From a virus: 31,964 nucleotides of DNA. Below the pieces are notes generated by a model. That model searched no databases. It saw only the letters and a program-made list of their open reading frames with translations, and had not been told where the DNA came from. The DNA is taken from positions 1-31,964 of the IMG/VR virus record IMGVR_UViG_3300023179_000337; one strand, written 5' to 3'. The translations under genes and the position numbers were made by a program. Below, piece after piece: positions 2,466 to 31,481 of the stretch (positions are counted from its first letter, which is position 1; every line of letters begins with the position of its first letter).

Positions 2466-3479
2466 TTATCCTATTCTAAAAAGTATAGGTTCACTATCAC
2501 CAAATCCAGCAGAGGCTCCAGTAAATAATCTCTGTTCTAAAGAATCTTTTTCCTTTAAACCTTGTTCAAGCAAAGCTGGATTTATCGTACCACCACCAAA
2601 TAAAGCTGTTCCAGAATATTTACCACGAATATTGCCAATTGCTATTTTTGTCAAGGCTGATGCGTATTGATAAACCCAAGGTTCTTTTATTATATCAGAT
2701 AAAGGTCTTTCCACATAACATGATATGGCTCCATAAAATCTAGATGGGGAAGAACCCATTTTAGGTTGAGGCGTAATTCTCATATATTGAGTTCTTTCAT
2801 CAAATTGTATATCTCTTCTAAGAGATAAAACCTTTTCTCTAGTCTCCAACCAATTTTTTAAAACATACCAAGAAACCAAATCGAACCCATAATTTCCCAT
2901 AGAATATGAGAAGTATGTTTGTTGCGCCAATGTTTGTTCAATAGTAAACAATGTATTAATACCATTCGTTGATCCTTCTTCGAAATCTGTAACAGCTATA
3001 ACTTTCCTATAACTATTTAAAAGATAATCGTAAGAATTCATTAGCTGTAAAGTATCCCTACCTAAACTATCTGGCTTATTAACTTGAAAAATCCAAGGAG
3101 AGTTGGGATCTCCTATAACCATTTTTCCTATAGTATATGCTTTAGATACATCTTTGTTTATATTATCATTTTCCAACCTAGCATTAAAATCTCTAGTTAA
3201 AGAAAATAAAACGTCTAATCTAATTCCTTTATCTTTCTCGTAAAGGTCTGAATCAAATACCAGATATTCTCTAGTGTATCCAGCATATTTAGTAAACATT
3301 TCCGCAGCAATAGATATAAATTCATTTAATTGATCCTCATGTATTTCTAAATTTATCATTGGCGCTCCAAGAGATCTACAGATTCTCTGTCCAACTCTTT
3401 CGTAACTATCCATGATATTGTTTAAATTGCTACTATAAAAAGAAGAAACAGGTAAAGATGTTGTGCATTCCATTGACAT
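2466..3479 (-). CDS. Probable neck protein, T4 gp13-like
   Basis: This 337-aa protein has a size near T4 gp13 (309 aa), a neck protein that with gp14 closes the portal end of the head and receives the tail. The N-terminal part (residues ~25-70) carries the pattern I associate with this group: a helix ending in LGAP, then a beta stretch INLEIHEDQL, then an amphipathic helix ISIAAEMFTKYAGYT. The centre is alpha/beta without a known motif, and the C-terminal third includes a helix with YASALTKIAIGNIRGKYSG and a Gly-rich GGGTINP. The gene sits between fibre genes and head-completion genes, as gene 13 does in T4. The identity rests on pattern and position, not on a search, and another connector protein remains possible. 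TCTAAATA lies just upstream. Confidence 0.6.
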   Translation of the reverse strand: MSMECTTSLPVSSFYSSNLNNIMDSYERVGQRICRSLGAPMINLEIHEDQLNEFISIAAEMFTKYAGYTREYLVFDSDLYEKDKGIRLDVLFSLTRDFNARLENDNINKDVSKAYTIGKMVIGDPNSPWIFQVNKPDSLGRDTLQLMNSYDYLLNSYRKVIAVTDFEEGSTNGINTLFTIEQTLAQQTYFSYSMGNYGFDLVSWYVLKNWLETREKVLSLRRDIQFDERTQYMRITPQPKMGSSPSRFYGAISCYVERPLSDIIKEPWVYQYASALTKIAIGNIRGKYSGTALFGGGTINPALLEQGLKEKDSLEQRLFTGASAGFGDSEPILFRIG

Positions 3480-3489
3480 ATATTTTAAT

Positions 3490-3497
3490 TATTTAGA
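3490..3497 (-). promoter_or_regulatory. Late-promoter-like box TCTAAATA
   Basis: On the minus strand TCTAAATA, continuing as ATT, stands upstream of the probable neck gene. With T4 late geometry RNA would start at about 3484, leaving a leader of some 5 nt before the ATG at 3479. No Shine-Dalgarno sequence is seen. Confidence 0.5.
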
Positions 3498-5493
3498 TAA
3501 ATTTCCATTTGTCCAAAAGATAATCGTTTATTTTTTCAACATCTGTTGAGTTTTTATAACCTTTATATAATAACAATTCATGTAATTTAAATTCTGAAAA
3601 TCCAGAATATGGATCTTTACCACCTATTGTAGTATATGAATTATTAAATGTTGCAGTTAAAGCTGTTACATTTACATAACCATCGCTATCATTAATAATT
3701 GTGGATTGAGATGATGGGCGTGTTGGACTCGCACTTAAAAATCTTGTCGAGACACATAAGGGTTTATTTTTATTATTAACCCCATATTCATATTCATAAT
3801 ATTTAACCAAAGTTCCTATACCTACTGAATACTTGTTTGGTATTTTAAATATTCCATAATTAGCATTAGCCCATAACCATTCCACATTTGCTGAAGAATT
3901 ATATGGAGTGAAAACCGTAAATGTTGAGAAATCACTATTACCAGATAGTATTAAATTTCTATAATGTGTCGATGACAAATTATAATTAAAAGACTGTTTG
4001 GGTAAAGTATTATAATAAGAACTTGTAGTCGTATTACTTGTAAAGTATATTTTAGATCCACTTATTTTTGAAGACAGTGATGTTATATAACTATTACCAT
4101 CTATAGTTGTAAAATCAACAGTTGAATAATCCATGGCATCCAACCATAAAGATATACCCGAAGAAAGTGTGGGAAGAAGAGGAACTGTTTCTCCAAATTT
4201 TACAAATATAGATTGCACTCTAGCATCCGTATAGGATGGGCTGGCTGTTATTATGTGGCCAGTCTCATTTTTTTTATAACCATCAGGTTTAAAAATAAAA
4301 TCTTTGATTTCAATATCATTGACCACAAGCTCTGATATATAACCATAAGATCTTGTAAAAATTTGAATGGATTGATAAGGATCACATTTTACTAGGAAAA
4401 TGGACTTGGATGCTGATAAAGAATTAGTGGCTGGTATTATATCATTGTTAGGCAAAACAACATTGATTCTATCATCCGAACCGATTGAACCATATGGTGG
4501 AGATGCTGAAAGAGCGGATAATGTTACAAATGTGAATACAAAATCTTCATTATAGTCGGATTTAGAGATGTTTATACTATTGCTTGAGTCGTATGGATCT
4601 GAACCATCTATGTTTAAAGTTAAACCTATATCTGGTAAAAAAGATTCGTCAAAATTTAAAGATATGGGATTTATAGGTATACTGTTTTCAAAAAAAGATA
4701 TACCATCTCCAGCATAATATAAATTTCTTTCTGGAGCATTTATGTCATATAAATGATGTCTTCCGTGTAAAAATTGCCCATCATATATAAAATTAAATTT
4801 TCTAGCATGTATACCACTTATGGTAAAAGATTTGGTGTTTTGTGGAAATTTGAAATAATCTGGATTAAAATGCACACTCAATGCCGAATAACATGTAGCA
4901 TCTGTTATTAATAATAAATTATACAATCCACCCTTTTGAGCACCAATAAAACTAGAAAATGATGAAGTGTTTGTGGTAACATAAATAGCAGTTTGCGCTG
5001 AACTTAAATTCCAAACTATATTACCAATATCACTCGGAAATATATTAAAAGCTGAAAAACTTTTTTGTTTTGTAAATTCTTGAACTTTATTTGAATATAC
5101 TGTATTTGAAATATTATTATTCCATTTATTAGATTCTATTTCATATGTTTTGTGAAAAGATTCCCAGCTGGAAGATGCGGCTGAAAAAGAAGTAAAAACA
5201 GATCTATTATTCATCCACGATGCACTGAATGTGTTAACTGTGCTATAAGTTGTTATAAACTTATTCCATTCTAAAGCATTTGCAGTTACTGTTTCATACG
5301 TACTTTTCCAATTGTAACTATTATCTAAAGCCAAAAAATTACCACTTTGGTCATATATATTATTGTGGAATATTCCCAAATAAGGAAATTCTAAAGAAGC
5401 TATTGGATCAGATGCGGAATCTGGAAAATCAGCCATGGCAATCGTATGGTGATTGCTTCTATGGAATTTGTTATGGAAAATAAATACAGACAT
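3493..5493 (-). CDS. Tail fibre or whisker-like protein with Trp-ladder stalk and LamG-like C-terminus
   Basis: This 666-aa protein has three parts. Residues 1-60 hold a His-rich motif (HNKFHRS followed by HHT). Residues 62-124 form a stalk with tryptophans at 62, 76, 93, 110 and 124, with Ser/Thr/Tyr-rich filling. From about 434 to the end is a probable concanavalin/LamG-like domain, starting GISLWLDA and closing with a helix ending in DYLLDKWKF, a pairing I know from LamG-type phage proteins. The first ~250 residues align throughout with the neighbouring 251-aa protein, so the two are tandem paralogs and this one has gained about 410 residues. Its place just before the neck gene is where T4 has the fibritin gene wac. 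A carbohydrate-binding fibre is the best inference. It follows the paralog after 3 bp. Confidence 0.75.
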   Translation of the reverse strand: MSVFIFHNKFHRSNHHTIAMADFPDSASDPIASLEFPYLGIFHNNIYDQSGNFLALDNSYNWKSTYETVTANALEWNKFITTYSTVNTFSASWMNNRSVFTSFSAASSSWESFHKTYEIESNKWNNNISNTVYSNKVQEFTKQKSFSAFNIFPSDIGNIVWNLSSAQTAIYVTTNTSSFSSFIGAQKGGLYNLLLITDATCYSALSVHFNPDYFKFPQNTKSFTISGIHARKFNFIYDGQFLHGRHHLYDINAPERNLYYAGDGISFFENSIPINPISLNFDESFLPDIGLTLNIDGSDPYDSSNSINISKSDYNEDFVFTFVTLSALSASPPYGSIGSDDRINVVLPNNDIIPATNSLSASKSIFLVKCDPYQSIQIFTRSYGYISELVVNDIEIKDFIFKPDGYKKNETGHIITASPSYTDARVQSIFVKFGETVPLLPTLSSGISLWLDAMDYSTVDFTTIDGNSYITSLSSKISGSKIYFTSNTTTSSYYNTLPKQSFNYNLSSTHYRNLILSGNSDFSTFTVFTPYNSSANVEWLWANANYGIFKIPNKYSVGIGTLVKYYEYEYGVNNKNKPLCVSTRFLSASPTRPSSQSTIINDSDGYVNVTALTATFNNSYTTIGGKDPYSGFSEFKLHELLLYKGYKNSTDVEKINDYLLDKWKFI

Positions 5494-5496
5494 CTT

Positions 5497-6252
5497 TTAA
5501 AGTTGTGTTTTATACAGATCGCCAAACATTAAAGAACCATCACATAAAAAATTCAAAACAGTAACTCCGTTTGGTGTTTGTAAAATATCATTTGGAATGA
5601 TGGTACCTACTGGAAACTTATAGACTGTATCGAAATTAACACTCCATCCTCCACCATTTATTTGCTTAACATATAATGTATATATGCCACCTCTTTTCAT
5701 GCTAACTGATGTTGGATTTTTAATTGTCACATTCATATTAACATCTAAGAAAGCAACTTGAGCCACATCTAAATCCCAATCTACATTACCGCCATTTATG
5801 CTTAAAGTGTATCCTCTAAAAGTTTTAGATCTAGTGTTTTGCTGAACTCTATTAGTGTATAATAGATTAGGATCCCCCCATAGTGCGCTATTAGCACAAA
5901 TTGTTGTATATGTGGAATCATAATTCGCAGATACTGGTTTAAGAGATAGATATGCGCTATACCCCAAACCCCAACCACCACTTTCATAATATACTGTGGT
6001 ATAAACAGTTTTTATAGAATCCCAATTAGATGATAATGAACTAACTGTGGAATAAGTACTATACCATTCGTATGAATTAGTGTTTATGTTAAATGATCTA
6101 ATTTGATCAGTTAAGGTGTTATAAAATATACCATTGAATGGTTCATTATATGTGGCTATAGGATCAGTGCCTTGATCTTGGTTCAAATAACTAGATAAGG
6201 TATGATGTGATGATCTATGAAATTTATTGTGCGCTCTAAAAATACCAGCCAT
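5497..6252 (-). CDS. Short paralog of the Trp-ladder fibre protein
   Basis: This 251-aa protein has no named domain. It begins with the same His-rich motif (HNKFHRS, then HHTL) and the same DPIA-x(n)-GIF block as the 666-aa neighbour, then repeats its stalk: aromatic residues Trp63, Trp77, Trp94, Tyr111 and Trp125, spaced 14-17-17-14 exactly as in the paralog. After the stalk, RVQQNTRSKTF, a short all-beta region and the ending FLCDGSLMFGD also have counterparts there, but the LamG-like extension is absent. It could be a coiled or beta-structured trimer that forms a basal fibre or whisker. A box GTTAAATA lies 6 bp before the ATG, and no ribosome site is visible. Confidence 0.7.
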   Translation of the reverse strand: MAGIFRAHNKFHRSSHHTLSSYLNQDQGTDPIATYNEPFNGIFYNTLTDQIRSFNINTNSYEWYSTYSTVSSLSSNWDSIKTVYTTVYYESGGWGLGYSAYLSLKPVSANYDSTYTTICANSALWGDPNLLYTNRVQQNTRSKTFRGYTLSINGGNVDWDLDVAQVAFLDVNMNVTIKNPTSVSMKRGGIYTLYVKQINGGGWSVNFDTVYKFPVGTIIPNDILQTPNGVTVLNFLCDGSLMFGDLYKTQL

Positions 6253-6273: not shown

Positions 6274-7875
6274 TTATTCAACAATACTATATAAAACTGC
6301 ATTCAAAACATTTTCTTGTAATTCATATATTTTTAAAATTTCACGATTTATTACCGATGATTGAAAATTCTCATTGATTCCAACAATACAACTTTGATCG
6401 AAGTTTTCAGAAGATAATTCTAAAACGCTAGTATTATATATTTTTTCTATAGATATAATATCTCCTAAAGAATTTTCATCTTTTACAAAAGTGTAAGATA
6501 CATTATTTTTTAAAAAATCAATATTATGTAATAATTTTTTAAAACTTTTTTCGTAAATCCAACTTTGATTCCATTCTTTTTCTTTAATTAAAACCTCATC
6601 TTTTGAATATATTTTAAAATCTGTATCATTCAAAATTGTTATTAAATCCAACTCATCAGTATATATTAATATTTGGTTTGCTCTAGCTGTAGAATTATAC
6701 ATGTATACATATATAAAATCTGAATTTTCAGTTTTAGATATATTCATGAACCATTTAAAATAAGAATTTGTACCAAAATCTACAGCTTTTTTTCTGCCTA
6801 TGGATTTTGTTAATCTACTATCCCACTTTTTTATCAAGCTTTTATTCGTTAATATATAAACAATATCTTTTTCATATTTTGAGAAATTTATATCTATTAT
6901 TTTTTCATCAGACTCTAATACGGATGATAGAGATATAAAACTGTTTAATGTCATTTTTTTATCCACTAATGATAAATCAAAGCTATAATATCCTTTATCG
7001 ACTATTCCATATATTTCATTTTCATCTTTTAATTTTAAAGAATTAAAAGAATAAATTGATTTATACAAACTTATATTTGTTTCGTAAAATAAAAAATTAA
7101 AATTTGAATTATAAAATTTAAATATTTTATTATCAAAATCTTCCACTAAAATAGTATTTTTATACGTTGGAATTTTTTTAGGTTTTTCAAAACGTAAACT
7201 ATCATATCTACTTCCCTGACCACCCAATATATCCAATAAAAATAATCTATTATTGAAAGGAGATGATGTATTTTTAAAAATATTTTCATTCGAAAAATAT
7301 GATAAAAGATCATATTTAAAAACTACATCCAATTTCTCATCAGATACGCACAAATATCTATCTTCCAAAATTGAAATGGAATTTATTTTTTGAAAAGTTA
7401 ATTCTCCAGACAATGCATCCACAAGCGTTATAATATTTGGACAAACTTGACAAAAAGTTGTATCGTAATCATGTCTCAATACAGTGATGGCAGATATACA
7501 ATTTACGAACAGATAAAACATGTTATTATTTCTATAAACCACTCCATTTTGGGCAAAGTCTAATGGTTTAAAATTAGCAGCTGAAAAATCATCTGAATTT
7601 GTAGTATTGTTATATATACCAACTTTACTACCAGTAACGCCTATAAAGCCATTAAAAGTTGTGGGTATTACATAATTAGGTATAGAACATCTACTATACA
7701 AATACATGAAATTGTCATAAAGATATGATAATTTAATATTTATAGTTTTATGATAGGATAGTTCATTGGGTTGAATTATTACTTCATTTTTACTATAAGG
7801 TAAAACATCCAAAACATCAATAGTCTTATCATAATCAAAAATGCTTTTTTCAAATTCTGAAGAAATTGCTATCAT
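6274..7875 (-). CDS. Structural protein with propeller-like repeats, probably baseplate or tail associated
   Basis: This 533-aa protein begins with DVLPYSKNEVIIQPNEL and a helix LSYLYDNFMYLYSRC, words I recall from structural proteins of T4-like aquatic phages but cannot verify here. The centre (about residues 100-420) is a run of beta strands with a four-strand rhythm (DRYLCVSDEKLDVVFKYDL, NTILVEDFDNKIFKFYNS, DIVYILTNKSLIKKWD), which suggests an NHL-like beta-propeller. The C-terminal ~60 residues are more helical (around LKIYELQENVLNAVLYSI). Its ATG overlaps the stop of the 1400-aa gene as ATGA, so the two are translationally coupled and probably act together. No enzyme motif is seen. Confidence 0.7.
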   Translation of the reverse strand: MIAISSEFEKSIFDYDKTIDVLDVLPYSKNEVIIQPNELSYHKTINIKLSYLYDNFMYLYSRCSIPNYVIPTTFNGFIGVTGSKVGIYNNTTNSDDFSAANFKPLDFAQNGVVYRNNNMFYLFVNCISAITVLRHDYDTTFCQVCPNIITLVDALSGELTFQKINSISILEDRYLCVSDEKLDVVFKYDLLSYFSNENIFKNTSSPFNNRLFLLDILGGQGSRYDSLRFEKPKKIPTYKNTILVEDFDNKIFKFYNSNFNFLFYETNISLYKSIYSFNSLKLKDENEIYGIVDKGYYSFDLSLVDKKMTLNSFISLSSVLESDEKIIDINFSKYEKDIVYILTNKSLIKKWDSRLTKSIGRKKAVDFGTNSYFKWFMNISKTENSDFIYVYMYNSTARANQILIYTDELDLITILNDTDFKIYSKDEVLIKEKEWNQSWIYEKSFKKLLHNIDFLKNNVSYTFVKDENSLGDIISIEKIYNTSVLELSSENFDQSCIVGINENFQSSVINREILKIYELQENVLNAVLYSIVE

Positions 7876-14202: not shown

Positions 14203-16680
14203 TTATGTTATTGTTAAAGTCGAGTTTGCTGAATTATAAGATCCAGTTCTTCCAGAAGCATTTTGCAATGTAACAGCGGGATACAAGTTAACAGTTCTTG
14301 CTGGTAATAAAATAAAAGAATCGCCGACAATAGGAGGAGTTGTAAAATCAACTGTTAAGGTAGTATTGGTAAATGATGCAAAATTTACTTTATTGGAAGG
14401 ATTGGAAGACAATCCATAATTTACTAATGTACCAGCAGAAATTGCAGTAAATCCTGTATATCTCGGCCCAATACCTAATGATGTACTACCAGAAAGAGTT
14501 AATGTACCTGTTCCTGTTTTAATTAAATTAATATTACCAGAAATATTTCCAGTATATGTTGTATTGGTAGGATAACCAAAAGTAGTAACATTATTTGCTG
14601 TTAAATTAGAAAATGTTGAAGAATTATTAAAAATATTAGCAGATGTACATGAAGCAAAATTGGTAGAGTTATTATTAATATTTCTTAATATCTGATCTGT
14701 ACCATTTAAATTTAAAAGTGGTATTTTAAGATTGTTAGGTGCGGTATCGTTTCCAATTCTAAGCATTTCATTATTAATAACAAAAGAAGTGTTCATTATT
14801 GCCATGCCATCCATAAGCCTAAATGCATAAAATCTATGCCCTGAAACATTAAATGTTACAGTCGAAGGTGTGGGGCTATTGATTGTGAACGTATTGAAAG
14901 CGTTATTTAAAATAATAGGTGAATTTATAATAAAAAGACCGTGGGTCGAAGCCCCAAAAGTATTAAACTCACCAGTCCAATTAGAATATCCAGATACGCC
15001 TCCGTTAATTGTTATAGTATTACCAGCATTTACTCGTAGAGTTTGGGTTATATTAGAAGCACTATTATCAATAGGTCCGCAAACAATTAGGCCATTTAGG
15101 GTAACTGATTTATTGGCAATTAAAGATGTACCAGCTGCTCCATTTATATAAATTGGATTATTAATAATTGTATTTGCTGGTGTTGCTGTTGAAGGGATAT
15201 TAATAAACCCGTTCGTAGGTACTGTAGCACTCGAAAGATAAACACTTCCAGTTCCAAACGGATTACTATTAAAAACATTAATAGTACCAGCATTTATAAA
15301 TGTATTTCCAGTATATGTATTATTTCCACTTAATGATAGTGCCTGTGTTCCAATTTTTGTTAAAGAACCAGAACCACTTATCTTACCATTAAGATTGATA
15401 TCAGCTGTCTTACAATCCACATTTCCAGCACTAGAAGCTAAAATTATATCATTATTGATGGTTTGTGTGTTGCTAGAATTATTTTCAATATTACCAAAAT
15501 TTAAAGTGAATCTATTTCCAGATAATGCGAATGCTGCGGCTCCCGTATTAAATTTTATTCCATTATAAGGAGCATCTATCGTAAGATTGTTAAATGGTGT
15601 TAGTCTATTAAATCCAAATTGCAATTCATCAAAAGGTTTTGGAACTCTTATATTCCAGTTAGAAGAAGTACTCCAGTTATTATCAGAACCTAAACCCGTC
15701 CATATAAGAGTAGACGTTTGAAGCAGAGTTGGTGTATTTGTTGGTGTATTTGTTGGCGTAGGTGTTGGGGTTGGGCATCTACTTTCCAAAGGAGTTCTAG
15801 TAGGACTTATACTTGGAGTTATAGTGGGAGTAGCTGTTTTGGTGGGAGTGTTTGATGGACTTCTTGTTATCGTAGGAGTTTGTGTGGGTTTTGGGGTTTT
15901 TGTCGGTGTTCTAGTTACTGTAGGTGTTTGTGTTTTAGTTGGAGTTATCGAAGGCGTGGGAGTATATGTGGGGGTTATAGAAGGTGTTGGAGTTTGTGTT
16001 GGACAAATTGGAAAATTTTTTATAGCCGATAAAGAAAAGGATTGTTCGGATATACCCAATATCGGAGATCCACCATATCCAGTGTTAAAATAATAAAAGG
16101 TGTAAACATTATTATCCGATGCTGAGAGAGTGACATTATTGTTTACAAATAATTCATTTTGACTAGATGTTATTTGATTCGTATTTGTAAATGATATTTT
16201 ACAATTATTAAAATTATTTAAATCGTAAACATTGCTAACCTGCAATCCGTTTATTCCTTTTAAATAAACATTGAAATTTGAAACAGTGTTATTAACAATA
16301 ATATAGTTTCCATAATATACACTAGTATCAACTAAGTCGTAATTATTAACAACACAATGATATTTTACAGGAAAAGCTGAAACTACAAAAAATTGAGTGT
16401 ATGTACCATACACATTTGTTCCAGAAAGTTTAACATAATAAATCCCATCATTATTAAATGTATGTACAATATTTTCCGAAGTATAATCCACATCATACCC
16501 TCCACTCACATTCCAAGCCCAAGAATCAACAGCTAAGATATTTCTGTTAAAACCGCTCAAAGAAATTGTAAGCGGTGCAAACCCTTTTAATGTTTTAAAT
16601 TGTTGAGTATTATTAAATGTACTAGAAGGTGAAAATTCACCATTATTAATCAAAGGAAAATATGTCTTTAAACCAATCAT
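14203..16680 (-). CDS. Fibre or adhesin with PKD-like domain, Thr-Pro array and autotransporter-type beta-helix
   Basis: This 825-aa protein has clear modules. Residues ~30-108 are PKD-like (SWAWNVSGG, VHTFNNDGIYYVKLSGTN). Residues ~226-318 form a Thr-Pro array bounded by two Cys-Pro pairs (ICPTQT and RCPTPT). After a TLIWTGLG link, the rest is Asn/Thr/Gly-rich beta-helix. It holds at least two copies of the autotransporter-associated beta-strand (PATR) motif: SLTKIGTQALSLSGNNTYTG with FINAGTI at ~437-460, and NLIKTGTGTLTLSG with AISAGTL at ~717-755. In bacteria such repeats form passenger domains; here there is no signal peptide and no C-terminal barrel, so it is a virion protein. ATGA overlap couples it to the lectin/FG-GAP gene, and GGGGAG gives it one of the few real ribosome sites. 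A receptor-binding spike is the best guess. Confidence 0.8.
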   Translation of the reverse strand: MIGLKTYFPLINNGEFSPSSTFNNTQQFKTLKGFAPLTISLSGFNRNILAVDSWAWNVSGGYDVDYTSENIVHTFNNDGIYYVKLSGTNVYGTYTQFFVVSAFPVKYHCVVNNYDLVDTSVYYGNYIIVNNTVSNFNVYLKGINGLQVSNVYDLNNFNNCKISFTNTNQITSSQNELFVNNNVTLSASDNNVYTFYYFNTGYGGSPILGISEQSFSLSAIKNFPICPTQTPTPSITPTYTPTPSITPTKTQTPTVTRTPTKTPKPTQTPTITRSPSNTPTKTATPTITPSISPTRTPLESRCPTPTPTPTNTPTNTPTLLQTSTLIWTGLGSDNNWSTSSNWNIRVPKPFDELQFGFNRLTPFNNLTIDAPYNGIKFNTGAAAFALSGNRFTLNFGNIENNSSNTQTINNDIILASSAGNVDCKTADINLNGKISGSGSLTKIGTQALSLSGNNTYTGNTFINAGTINVFNSNPFGTGSVYLSSATVPTNGFINIPSTATPANTIINNPIYINGAAGTSLIANKSVTLNGLIVCGPIDNSASNITQTLRVNAGNTITINGGVSGYSNWTGEFNTFGASTHGLFIINSPIILNNAFNTFTINSPTPSTVTFNVSGHRFYAFRLMDGMAIMNTSFVINNEMLRIGNDTAPNNLKIPLLNLNGTDQILRNINNNSTNFASCTSANIFNNSSTFSNLTANNVTTFGYPTNTTYTGNISGNINLIKTGTGTLTLSGSTSLGIGPRYTGFTAISAGTLVNYGLSSNPSNKVNFASFTNTTLTVDFTTPPIVGDSFILLPARTVNLYPAVTLQNASGRTGSYNSANSTLTIT
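15728..16002 (-). repeat. Thr-Pro coding array 1
   Basis: About 90 codons encode mostly alternating Thr-Pro with Gln, Ser, Lys or Asn insertions. The base period is 6 bp, and the plus strand is strongly G+T rich here. It is interrupted once by a non-repeat segment around LESRC. Confidence 0.9.
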
Positions 16681-19918: not shown

Positions 19919-22900
19919 TCAACTGAAAGTGACCAAATAATCGTTTTGAATTCTTATAACAGGATCTGAGTTAACAAATGTTACTACAGAATTTATAGGA
20001 GCTGGTGGAGTTTGTGTAGGAGTTGGCGTAACTGTTTTCGTTGGTGTTTGTGTTTGTGTTTTTGTTATAGTGGGTGTTTGTGTTTGTGTTAAAGTAGGTG
20101 TTTGTGTCGGTGTTTGTGTCGGTGTCGGTGTTTGTGTCGGTGTCGGTGTTTTAGTAGCAGGTAAACTTAAAGTTTGTGTAACAGTGGGTGTTAATGTTTG
20201 TGTTGGCGTTACTGTGGGTGTTGGTGTAGCTGTATCTGTTACTGTAGGTGTTAATGTTTGTGTTGGAGTTACAGTAGGCGTTAAGGTTCGTGTTGGCGTT
20301 ACTGTAGGTGTTGGTGTTTTAGTAGGTGTATTTGTACGTGTATTTGTAGGTGTATTCGTTACTGTAGGTGTTTGTGTTGGAGTAGTAGTAGGTGTTTGTG
20401 TTGGAGTTTTTGTAAGCGTTGGTGTAGGCGTAACTGGAGGGGCTGAGAACGGGTTTTTATAATCTAAATATGCTGAAACATATATCGTTTCCGTTAAGGA
20501 TAAATTTTCTATACTGGAATAACTTATATTTATACCAGTAGAATTTTGATAAAGATTTGATTGAGCATATGGCGCTCCTAAGTTGGCATCTGTTATAGAT
20601 AAACTATCGTTTATCAATATAAAACCCGTAGATCCAGATTTTATATCCAAAGATGATGCCCCCATAAGTATACCATCGCCAGAAATATATGTATAATCCA
20701 ATGGCACATTTGAATCATAATACAATATACTAGACCCATTAATAAAATCTGGAATTATAGAAACATTACTATTCTTTATATATAAACCAGAACCTTCAGT
20801 GGTAATAGTGTCTAAATATATCGGACCATCATTTCCGAAAGCATTTGGATCTGGTGTTGAACTTATTATAACTTTATTTGGACCAATTTTATTGATGGAC
20901 AATCCAACTTGTCCAAATGGTAAATAAACAGCGGTTAATGAAACATTTCCAGTAATAACGAAAGTTAAAGTATTTTGGTTGGCAGTTCCTTTAATGTTCG
21001 GGTCATCCGCACATAATGCTATAAACGTACTATCCCCGAAAGTGTTGTCTGCCTTTATAGTTACTCTTTTACCAGATAAAAATTCATAACTGCAAATATT
21101 CAAACTAGAAGGATTGAATGGTTCACAATCCAACCCGATTGGCTCTGTAGAGTAAACTCTACCAACACCACCGCCAGCAGAATATGTTACACTCACAGTA
21201 TATCCCAAATAATTAAAATATGCTACAAAATTATAATTATCATCTAAATCAAAATAACATTTAGGATTTGTAGAATTATTACATGGTCCACCAATCCATC
21301 TATTGAATTGGTAATATTCAGTAGTAGGCTTTGCCGTTAAACTTATAAAAGTTTGTTCGGATAAAGATTTATACGTATTTGAAGTTGTTATATTTAATTC
21401 AGAATCGTCGTAAATCCATTCTATAACACCCTGCGCTGGTTGATTCACTAAAATACTTTTAGTGGTTGGAAATGCCAATGTTTCGAATTCTCCACCTTCC
21501 GTATTGATTATTAAAGAATCATTATCGAAGGGTTGACTTTCAACTCCTAAATTTAAATCATAGTATATGACCTCTCTATACATTGATTTAACATCAACGT
21601 CACCCCACATTATAAACGTACAAACTCTATCTCCACTGTAACAAGGTATACCATCGAATCTATCAAACTTATAACCAAATGGGGCTGGAGATGCCGAAAT
21701 AGTAACATATGTTCCTAAGAAATAATCGGTTTTACATTGTCCAGTACAATCCAATTGACCATCTAATGTCATTATACTACCTAAAGTTGAATCTGCTTTC
21801 AAAGTAACTAGAGGTAATAATTCAAAATTGGCTATTAATTTTTTATCATCGTTTAAATACAAAACGCAATCGTTTGTACTACCAATACATTCTGTCTCCC
21901 CCAACCATGAAACGAATCTACTATTAGACGCTGCTGAAGCAACTAGAGTTATAGTGGAATTAGCAGAATATAAGTATTCGCAATTATCACCGCAATAAAT
22001 ACATGGAGGATCTGTAAACACATCGCCTTTACCAGATCCAACCTTTTCTATTTTTAATCTTTTATAAATTCCAGATAAATTACTTGAGAAAAATCCAGAG
22101 AATTTAATATTTTGAGTTGTGTTAACGTCTATAAAAATAACCTCATCATATGGATAAGTTGGTCTTGTAGCATTTACATAAAATTCTATATCATCTACGT
22201 AAAAATTAAAAATATTTTTAGTTTCGTTATACGATGTCAAATAAATTGTTTTTGTGGATTGAGTATTTTTATCAGTGTATGTTATTAATAAATTATTTTC
22301 AACATCTTTTATGTTAAAAAATTCTTTACCTACGAAAATATTAGTATTGTCATAAGATTCCCAATCGAAGTGAACAACATAATTACCCACTTGGTTTATT
22401 TCTAAACTCTCAACATTCGAGGCAAATGCGTAATTCACACTATAGGGTAAAGTGTCAACTATATTTAAAGAATCATCATCTCTAACTCCTATATATCCAG
22501 ATTTATTAGATATAGCTCTAACATAATATGTGGCTGAAGGATTTGCGTAATTGTTGTCTAAAAAATAATAAAATGGCTTTAATAATAACGGACCTTCTGT
22601 TACAAAAGTATTATCTTCTGGTTTATAATACAATTTTTCATTTACTATAAACGGTATAGAGTTTAAATTTCTAGAAAAATAACTAAAATTATACTCATTT
22701 AAAAATGAATTTTTTCTAAAAGACCCTCCTGAATACTCCACTAAATTTATTTCTGGCACATCACCGTAAGGGCTAGAGAGAGAATATATATTGGTTAAAG
22801 TTTTATTATTCGGATATATTTTACTATAATTTAAACTTTCTAAATTTGAGGCATATATTTCTGGACAAATATATTTGTAATTTGAAGCTGATAATGAATT

Positions 22901-24874
22901 TTCTAAAGTTTTTATAAAAACTAAAAATATTTTTTTATTTTTTTCATCATACCATGGGTTTACAAATGTGTCTAAAAATATATTAAATCCTACTTTTTTA
23001 TTATAAAAGGGTTTGGTGCTTGCATTCTGAAATTCATTATTTTCGATATCATATTTGTAAGAATCACTAATTACATAATTTTCAGTTTCTATTACTATTA
23101 CGTTATTAATTACAAATAGTTTTAAAACCTTATCTTTTATCTCATTTACCACAAAATCTGGATATTTGAAAAATATTTTAGAAAATGCAGTGTTAATATC
23201 ACTTACTGTATTATAAAAATTATTTCTTACAAAGATTTTACCAGTTTTTATATTTTTCTTTTCATATATTGAAGAGTTTTCTATTTTTTTATTAGAAAAT
23301 TCTGTAGATGAACCTTTAATCAAACCCCCATCATATAAATCTCCAGAAATATATTTTGTTTCAGTATTGAGTTTTTTATATAAACCGAATTCATTACTAT
23401 ATTCATCCGTATACCAATCTACTACAACACCCTCATCCAATAAAAGATTTTTAGTATCTTTCTCTATAGGGTATATGTCTACATCGAAACTACCTTGCCA
23501 TATTTGATCCTTATCCCCACCCCAAAAAGTTATATTATCGGTAACTTTAGAAACACCTTCTGTTGATATTTTAGTATTTTGCTGTCTGCTTTGATAACCA
23601 TAAAAAAGTTTATCATAATTGTTACTCAAAACGTCATTTAATCTGAAACCGTTAGATATTTTATCTCTATTCCAATCAACATTTACACTATAAACTAAAG
23701 GGGAATTATTATTTTCTTTATCCGATGTATATATCGTATTTCCTATTTGATCTGGATTTGGAAAAATATAAACTTTATCTGGTGAAGTATTGCTAGGATT
23801 TAACTTATATGATTTATTAGGAGTATTATAAACTAACAATGTTTGATTCTGAGGTATAAAAAAACCTCCTAATTCATATAATGAATATAATTCATCCAAG
23901 GGTTGATTTAATATATTTGTGGAAAAATGTTTATTTAAAAATTCAGATGAATTTTTTTTAGATTCGAATAGTAATCCAGAAACACTTTTATTTTCTGAAT
24001 TTGTAGATATGTAGTAAAAATCGGTACCTATAAATTTTGGATATAATGATTTAAAAAGATTTAATTTTAAATCTTCGTCATTTTCAGATGATATGTAATT
24101 TAAAAAATCTCTATTTTTTAAATAATATAATTCATCTCCGCTTAATATTGGATTGAATGTAAAATCTGAAATATAATCATTATTTGAAGATTTTAAATAT
24201 AATGGATATGCAGATATTGAATTTATTATAGATTCTTTAAAATTTAAAAATATATTGTGATCTAATTTATTTGTATATGTATATTTTGTATTTTCAGATT
24301 TATCATAAAAAGGATCATTTTTACCATATAGTTCTTCGACATTTACATTGAAATTATTATAAAAAGATGACAGTTTACTACCTTTAGTGTCTATATTATT
24401 CTCTATATATTCAAATATTATTTTTTTTATAATACTCTCAACTCCAACGTTGCTACCTTTTAGGTTATACCTTAAAACACTATCTTTCACATCCTTTCTT
24501 TTACTTTTATAATAAAAGGATATTTGTTTTAATTTTTGTATAAAAAATGGAATTATTATATCTAAATCAGAATCATCTGTAAAATCCGAATTCAATATAA
24601 ATCTTTTCTCTTCTTCTGTGGAAAAATTTAATGTAATTTCTCTTAAAAGATTAATATAGGCGTCTCTAACTATTTCCTTTTCTTTAAACTTTTTGATATT
24701 TTTTTTAGATGACCATTTAAAAATATAATTTTGATAATTTTTAAAATTTCTTTCTAAGTCAAAAGATTGATAACTCTCATATTGAATAAAGGATATAAAC
24801 GAATAAGGAGCATTATAATCCTTCGGATTCTCTACATCATTGACTATACTGTATGGTAAAAATGAAAAATCCAT
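19919..24874 (-). CDS. Giant structural protein with divergent InlB-like repeats and C-terminal Thr-Pro array
   Basis: This is a 1651-aa protein. Residues 1-~930 lack a named domain, but [25 protein letters not shown] and [15 protein letters not shown] are words I recall (unverified) from a structural protein that follows gene 6 in T4-like aquatic phages. Residues ~940-1320 hold four ~90-residue units of the divergent InlB B-repeat type: a strand with G-x-(V/I), paired cysteines such as CIYCGDNC and GQCKT, F-x-x-W/F-x-G, a Cys-bounded loop, then (L/V)-x-A-x-F. Residues ~1478-1625 are a long Thr-Pro array, and a 26-residue beta tail closes the protein. The layout suggests an N-terminal baseplate anchor with exposed adhesive repeats. 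Which baseplate protein it replaces (gp7, gp8 or gp10) is not clear. A TAAATA box precedes it. Confidence 0.75.
20006..20438 (-). repeat. Thr-Pro coding array 2
   Basis: About 145 codons encode (Thr-Pro/Gln/Val/Leu) repeats with a 6-bp base period. The plus strand is extremely G+T rich here. An exact 21-bp word at 20358-20378 is shared with array 1 (15914-15934) and encodes TQTPTVT in the same frame in both genes. Confidence 0.9.
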
Positions 24875-30860: not shown

Positions 30861-31481
30861 TTGAAAGATATATTGCTTTTGTGTAATGAAAAATTAAGTA
30901 ATATGTATATGGCTGGAAAAATAACTATTGAAGAAATAAAAACCATTTTAAATTATCAAGATAAAATTAAAAACAAGTATAAGAGTATAAATTTTGATAC
31001 TTTTATAGAAACTGGTACTCACTATGGTTCAACGATATTTTCATTATATCCATTCTTTAAAGAATTACACACTGTAGAATTATCTGAAAATTTTTACAAT
31101 ATATGTAGGGAAAGAGCAAAATATGAAAATATCGAAAACATACATTTTCATTTGGGTAGTTCAGATATAGTTATAAAAAAAATATGCGAAGATATTAAAC
31201 AACCATTAATATTCTTTTTGGATAGTCATTGGTCTAAAGACAATACGGCTAAAGGAGAAATAGAAATTCCTCTTTTAAAAGAATTGGAGAGTATAAAAAA
31301 AAGAAATGAAAATGATATCGTTATAATAGACGATTTAAGACTTTTTGGTACAAAAAATCCAGATGATGTGGATTGGAGCGAAATAACCACAAACAATATT
31401 TTAAAAATATTGGGAGAAAATGTATTTGCTACGATGGAGTATAATGACAGATATATTGTTTTTTTAAAACAAAATATGTAA
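30861..31481 (+). CDS. Class I SAM-dependent methyltransferase
   Basis: This protein is up to 206 aa with a TTG start; ATGs at 30903 and 30909 are equally or more likely starts and would shorten it by 14 or 16 residues without touching the fold. The Rossmann methyltransferase motifs are in order: ETGTHYG (residues 50-56, SAM loop), HTVELSE (acidic end of strand 2), FHLGSSDIV (motif III region), FFLDSHW (119-124, motif IV), then IPLLKELESI and IVIIDD (155-158). This group is often linked to glycan or small-molecule methylation rather than DNA methylation, and no DNA-methylase motif (such as DPPY or NPPY) is seen. The substrate is unknown. It is transcribed away from gp25, within the structural region, and may be an accessory cargo gene. 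Confidence 0.85.
   Translation: MKDILLLCNEKLSNMYMAGKITIEEIKTILNYQDKIKNKYKSINFDTFIETGTHYGSTIFSLYPFFKELHTVELSENFYNICRERAKYENIENIHFHLGSSDIVIKKICEDIKQPLIFFLDSHWSKDNTAKGEIEIPLLKELESIKKRNENDIVIIDDLRLFGTKNPDDVDWSEITTNNILKILGENVFATMEYNDRYIVFLKQNM

Follow-up and report, generated by a model that had tools for sequence, protein, structure and literature searches.

In the excerpts of PMC3797505 used here, fibritins are described as beginning with a conserved module of about 50 residues, continuing in a helical, interrupted shaft and ending in a highly variable C-terminus. A different build is reported for the neck fibre of Anabaena phage A-1(L). In the portion of PMC10966104 considered here, this fibre is a bead-chain of several proteins (gp82-gp81-gp80) encoded in one operon, its anchor gp82N has a pilus-component-like fold and a carbohydrate-binding module sits at the distal end; the term coiled-coil does not occur in that portion of the text. 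Insertions of three residues into coiled coils (stammers) lower the periodicity below 3.5, locally to 10/3, and in known structures the strain is absorbed by a short 3-10 helix (excerpts of PMC4786415).

Here, we analyze two adjacent fibre-like genes in a viral record of 31,964 bases, the whole of which is called the window below. Both proteins share a histidine-rich N-terminal module of about 45 residues, a stalk with a ladder of regularly spaced aromatic residues and a beta domain, and the longer paralog has a C-terminal region that changes between phages. We think it probable that the two are paralogous trimeric virion fibres built from a docking anchor, a segmented coiled-coil ladder, a beta domain and, in the long type, a binding tip. 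Our verdict is a fibritin-like fibre pair of the whisker or fibre kind already known. The finding delimits a family of uncultured-phage fibres built as anchor, stalk and tip, and anchor and ladder together provide a sequence signature for locating variable, probably host-recognising tips.

Organization of the locus

The window carries a T4-like structural module on its minus strand. PHROGs matches in this module comprise protease, head-closure, neck-adaptor and gp25-type proteins; Pfam also matches two of these, the protease and gp25. A short fibre protein of 251 aa (A-type; 5497..6252, minus strand) and a long one of 666 aa (B-type; 3493..5493, minus strand) are encoded between a 533-aa gene (6274..7875, minus strand) and the neck gene (2466..3479, minus strand). 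The neck protein is a homologue of gp13 (head-tail adaptor Ad2), as judged by its match to phrog_211 (E 2.2e-16), by named neck proteins found with tblastn and by hhalign to T4 gp13 (96.7%, E 4e-10, 62 columns). A gp13-type neck gene thus lies directly downstream of the pair, in agreement with the preliminary description, which had pointed out that T4 has wac in the same slot. A and B genes are adjacent wherever both are complete, and in several phages they overlap by 4 bases; in locus L033, for example, A ends at 5819 and B starts at 5816.

Conservation of the aromatic ladder

The ladder occupies residues 58-127 of the 251-aa protein (5872..6081, minus strand; W63, W77, W94, Y111, W125) and residues 57-126 of the 666-aa protein (5116..5325, minus strand; W62, W76, W93, W110, W124). 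These residue numbers had been given in the preliminary description together with coordinates and protein lengths, and all of them are correct. The paralogs align over about 250 residues with 34% identity (the first 250 residues of the long protein), gap-free from residue 2 or 3 to the end of the ladder, and the five ladder pairs (251-aa/666-aa) are W/W, W/W, W/W, Y/W and W/W. All four Trp in the ladder region of the short protein pair with Trp in the long one, which is equalled by 1 in 100,000 shuffles. The residues in between mostly differ, as had been noted: only 16 of the 58 outside the ladder positions are identical. Since the paralogs align without gaps, equal spacing between them is by itself only homology, and relatives were therefore gathered for comparison.

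One locus was obtained via the 251-aa protein, 80 via the neck gene and 77 via the family alignment; several loci are the same contig twice (e.g. L030, L116), so that locus counts exceed contig counts. As A-type we counted complete ORFs that start with MAG and have one profile match from position 5 or earlier to position 140 or later (34 distinct; the start of the L022 protein was moved 17 residues inward). As B-type we counted complete ORFs of at least 140 aa that carry the histidine motif and come from the window or the loci below L121 (40 distinct), leaving out A-type proteins, L002 and L003.

The 14-17-17-14 spacing, for which exact conservation between the two paralogs had been claimed, is kept in all 34 distinct A-type proteins and in 29 of the 40 B-type proteins, while 11 of the 40 depart from it. 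Each departure concerns one interval: interval 1 is 16 in four proteins, interval 3 is 15 or 18 in three and interval 4 is 24 or 35 in four. A-type ladders contain no indel in 34/34; their five positions are aromatic in 33/34, the exception being a Gly at position 1, and the Ser at -3 of each aromatic is invariant. Positions 3 and 5 are Trp in 74/74 proteins of both types. In the B-type, position 1 is W in 38/40, and W, Y or F occupies position 2 in 40/40. The residue at position 4 varies among Y, W, F, L and I (aromatic in 32/40 B-type proteins). Because the spacing persists across relatives, the ladder is more than homology between two paralogs; it is a real, conserved feature in the A and B branches.

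The idea of a structural repeat also held up, in the form of S-x-x-W ... Y-x-x-V units of 14 or 17 residues. An early histogram over 1873 ORFs peaked sharply at 14, 17, 20, 29 and 31 and pointed to quantised spacing as a general rule. This rule was rejected: the peaks came mostly from homologous A/B sequences, and S or T had been accepted at -3. In a recount with the A/B proteins set apart, stricter redundancy removal and S alone at -3, the other proteins gave 65 S-x-x-W intervals of 14, in 14 proteins, five of 17 and a single one of 20. One of these five is the A-type protein of L022, misfiled with its long start, which is also the source of one interval of 31 and one of 36. We therefore claim 14 as a general unit and 17 only as a variant of the A/B proteins. 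Repeats of S-x-x-W of about 14 residues are also joined to an ISDL-type N-terminus that has no histidine anchor (L039, 2537-3817; L040, 6633-7973), so the stalk unit is portable.

Periodicity and secondary structure of the ladder

Per-column mean hydrophobicity of the ladder has a period of 3.43-3.45 in the A and in the B family, and none of 1000 shuffles scored as high. The periodicity remains when the five aromatic columns are masked (shuffles as high: 22/1000 for A, 0/1000 for B). Hardly any power falls on period 2.0 in the ladder; in the A-type alignment the C-terminal part has its peak there instead, as for a beta domain, at a level that is not significant. At 3.444 residues per turn the five ladder positions lie at most 0.07 turn off one line, and 0.85% of random spacing sets are equally coherent at any period between 3.35 and 3.65. 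On a flat strand, by comparison, the intervals of 17 would put the invariant third Trp on the opposite side. The period of 3.43-3.45 places all five aromatics on one helical face, and in this helical sense the earlier proposal of a shared face is supported. The weight of the method is limited by its weak positive control: T4 fibritin is a known coiled coil, and its windows, taken as single sequences, gave no significant periodicity at 3.3-3.7.

Proline and glycine distinguish the two kinds of unit. Pro occurs in the two 17-residue units in 15/34 and 12/34 A-type and in 20/40 and 9/40 B-type proteins, as against 0/34 and 0/34 (A) and 2/40 and 2/40 (B) in the 14-residue units, and Gly occupies +3 in the second 17-residue unit of 88% (A) and 65% (B). 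This concentration in the 17-residue units argues for a segmented alpha-helical coiled coil, and the simplest reading of the sequences would be two heptad segments that flank two units with a three-residue interruption.

AlphaFold monomers of both proteins have helices in the ladder at pLDDT below 50, and hence the helical reading is based on the periodicity and is unproved by structure. The ladder of the 666-aa model includes one strand, at 81-86; neither model has a ladder built from strands. The richness of the ladder in S, T, N and Y, residues that favour strands or loops, speaks against a helix. Searches of solved structures yielded nothing usable for the stalk, whether the query was the A profile, the B profile or one of three relatives or stalk pieces, and the one strong match is restricted to the collar tip of the L132 protein. 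In the open-access literature searched, no paper on such an aromatic ladder was found.

The 62 residues of the ladder over 18 layers amount to 3.44 and resemble in this respect coiled coils with stammers. The positions of Pro and Gly at the insertions are a difference, and they suggest an interruption rather than an overwound continuous helix. A more far-reaching reading, which we regard as doubtful, takes the ladder as one unbroken trimeric coiled coil with a strong left-handed twist (about 31 residues in 9 turns), two conserved stammers and stacked Trp/Tyr layers. In this uncultured phage clade it would then serve as a fixed-length stalk between one histidine-rich anchor and many exchangeable sugar-binding tips. 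For coiled-coil rules below 3.5 residues per turn, a stalk this short and with such strict aromatic spacing offers a compact test case, and its average of 3.44 would be of interest if the helix were continuous.

The N-terminal anchor

Both proteins begin with the same module, residues 1-45 of the 251-aa protein (6118..6252, minus strand) and residues 1-44 of the 666-aa protein (5362..5493, minus strand). An alignment of 16 anchors gives the motif H-x-K-x-H-x-x-x-H ... D-P-I-A ... P-F/Y-x-G-x-F in the first 45 or so residues. Among 16 viral records, the anchor is present twice in 9/9 records with an A/B pair and once in the 7/7 others. With exactly one or two copies per record, the motif is not a start common to fibres in general but the mark of a single kind of site. 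The His at residues 8, 12 and 16 of the 251-aa protein (i, i+4, i+8) are invariant in 16/16 aligned anchors and might conceivably form a metal site along the axis of the fibre.

Six loci (L129, L130, L135, L145, L147 and L148) encode proteins of 84-87 aa that extend scarcely beyond the anchor and lie directly downstream of the 533-aa homologue. They are perhaps adaptors for a fibre encoded elsewhere. No convincing anchor turned up when the two proteins and one anchor were compared by tblastn with 50,697 named phage records, and tblastn of a stalk piece and the anchor gave no named phage either, although the low-complexity filter may have hampered the search with the stalk.

Beta domain and C-terminal regions

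The C-terminal domain of the short protein (residues 141-251; 5500..5832, minus strand) is homologous to residues 150-250 of the long one (4744..5046, minus strand). Most of it is confidently modelled, with block means mostly at 70-89 from residue 151 of the 251-aa AlphaFold model. Seven of the eight top rows of its fold matches are phage spike or baseplate chains, with Z of 6.8-8.3 over 90-100 residues compared to 3.2 from row 10 down; values of Z below 8 may, as the search tool cautions, reflect merely a common arrangement. Two rows above this drop, 6o38 (Z 7.0) and StcE (Z 5.8), are not from phages. Acinetobacter phage Solidus gp83, the capsid spike of phage Pa223, baseplate chains of Klebsiella phage KP1 and TSP4 of phage CBA120 superpose on residues 141-251. 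They differ from the window proteins in that identity is 8-14%, only the beta domain matches and they occupy other places in the virion. Further matches of the beta domain are many viral proteins bearing the name tail fibre, and three weak tblastn matches of the 251-aa protein fall mainly within it.

Residues 251-666 of the long protein (3496..4743, minus strand) are replaced in relatives, and they contain no recognised domain according to Pfam. A ConA-like lectin fold at residues 420-666, suspected from the sequence, was dropped, as Pfam gave nothing above the cut-off and the AlphaFold model is poor there. The 20 B-type proteins scanned with Pfam include CBM_4_9 in three, EPTP in two, and a legume lectin and RCC1 in one each. 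Matches of two longer relatives to named phages are confined to their C-terminal domains.

Comparison with fibritin and other neck fibres

With T4 fibritin (gp wac) the window proteins have in common the gene slot before gp13 and the layout of an N-terminal module, a shaft and a variable C-terminus, as far as the excerpts of PMC3797505 describe it; that the shaft is helical and interrupted, as in fibritin, is suggested for the window proteins by periodicity and Pro/Gly, at low pLDDT. They differ from fibritin in their histidine-rich anchor, a shaft of only about 65 residues, the fixed aromatic spacing and the spike/baseplate-type beta domain after the shaft, and in being two paralogs instead of one gene and not always beside the neck gene. 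Kinship with fibritin is not supported: hhalign shows no similarity to T4 wac, no fibritin family is among the PHROGs or Pfam matches, and homology is rejected at the sequence level. In the hhalign comparison of the A (34 rows) and B (40 rows) alignments with 11 T4 proteins, wac, represented by one sequence only, was outside the five best, all of which were below 1%; the neck protein against gp13 served as control. Pfam matches up to E 1 contain no fibritin family that would indicate a C-terminal foldon, which weighs little because fibritin C-termini are extremely variable (PMC3797505, excerpts). Given the fibritin-like layout without similarity to wac, the window proteins probably work like fibritins and cannot be filed as such. 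The neck fibre of A-1(L) is likewise made of several proteins from one operon and ends in a carbohydrate-binding module; it is likened here by description only and deviates in its bead-chain form and its anchor (PMC10966104, excerpts).

Docking site and alternative readings

Of 87 homologues of the 533-aa gene, 76 are immediately followed by an anchor gene and one more overlaps one (L139); 54 of 92 neck loci have an anchor gene directly before the neck gene. Counted were neck loci with at least 1500 bases upstream or a direct neighbour, and 20 with too little upstream sequence were left out; the window, where an anchor gene also directly precedes the neck gene, is on the minus strand and enters neither count. 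Loci were gathered partly by the neck and partly by the anchor, hence these counts are not unbiased rates. In 38 of the 92 neck loci the anchor gene does not adjoin the neck gene, and four of these have an A/B pair further away. Among single-anchor loci, 31 (L121-L151) have no neck gene within the retrieved stretch and 18 of them have the 533-aa homologue. In record G007 some 97 kb of the contig separate the anchor from the neck gene. At seven loci (L050, L054, L056, L057, L059, L067 and L068) the stretch separating the neck gene from the 533-aa homologue is occupied by other fibre-like proteins, mostly two paralogs, each about 280-325 aa long, that have an ISQL/ISEL-type N-terminus and lack the histidine anchor.

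The anchor gene thus tracks the 533-aa gene more constantly than the neck gene, which leaves a neck site plausible and not settled. Neck or upper tail is the most likely docking site, and the baseplate is also possible. That the proteins are baseplate-attached fibres or spikes, with the adjoining neck gene merely reflecting the usual order of a structural operon, is a serious alternative to which we give about one chance in three. The neighbour counts, the single-anchor loci and G007 all favour it, as do the resemblance of the beta domain to baseplate and tailspike domains and the sugar-binding types among the B-type tips of relatives. On the other side, T4 wac occupies this very slot, between the fibre genes and gene 13, and the 533-aa and 1400-aa proteins have no similarity to T4 gp6-gp12.

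Other alternatives concern the ladder itself. Many phage fibre shafts are beta-structured, and a beta-spiral or triple beta-helix with its aromatics toward a common core would fit the S/T/Y/V/N-rich composition and the alternation of W-x-S-x-Y-x-T over seven residues in units 1 and 4. We nevertheless consider a beta shaft unlikely in view of the period of 3.43-3.45 with almost no power at 2.0, of the third Trp, which the 17-residue intervals would flip on a flat strand, and of the AlphaFold models, neither of which builds the ladder from strands despite the one at 81-86 of the long protein. Less probable still is a mixed trimer of A and B, whose chains would be kept in register by identical spacing. 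The adjacent and partly overlapping genes and the shared 14-17-17-14 pattern are in its favour, but shared ancestry suffices for equal spacing, and an interval is altered in 11/40 B-type and in none of the 34 A-type proteins. As B intervals change without a change in A, strict matching is not maintained, and a strictly in-register heteromer is disfavoured. The plainest account, in which the ladder has no special structure and the paralogs are recent, with Trp just their best-conserved residue, obtains the equal spacing for free from the gap-free alignment. We hold it to be very improbable, because the A-type ladders are free of indels, the helical periodicity survives masking of the aromatics and S-x-x-W repeats of 14 recur in 14 other proteins.

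In the preferred reading of paralogous trimeric fibres, each protein would form a trimer, an assumption taken from the type of protein. The N-terminal module would dock the fibre at one virion site. The ladder would be a short segmented alpha-helical coiled coil with Trp, Tyr and Val as core layers, its 14-residue units forming continuous heptads and its 17-residue units containing an interruption of three residues, by which the aromatics stay on one face. Through the fixed spacing, the layers of all three chains would stay aligned with one another and the stalk would get its defined length. The beta domain would cap or branch the stalk, and the tip of the long paralog might bind a surface sugar or another structure.

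Elsewhere in the window, two large proteins of 825 and 1651 aa (14203-16680 and 19919-24874, minus strand) contain long Pro-Thr-rich tracts. A 130-aa ORF on the plus strand (20070-20462) is the mirror image of such a tract in the 1651-aa protein. On the plus strand, opposite to the structural module, there is also a 206-aa ORF at 30861-31481 that is methyltransferase-like by eye.
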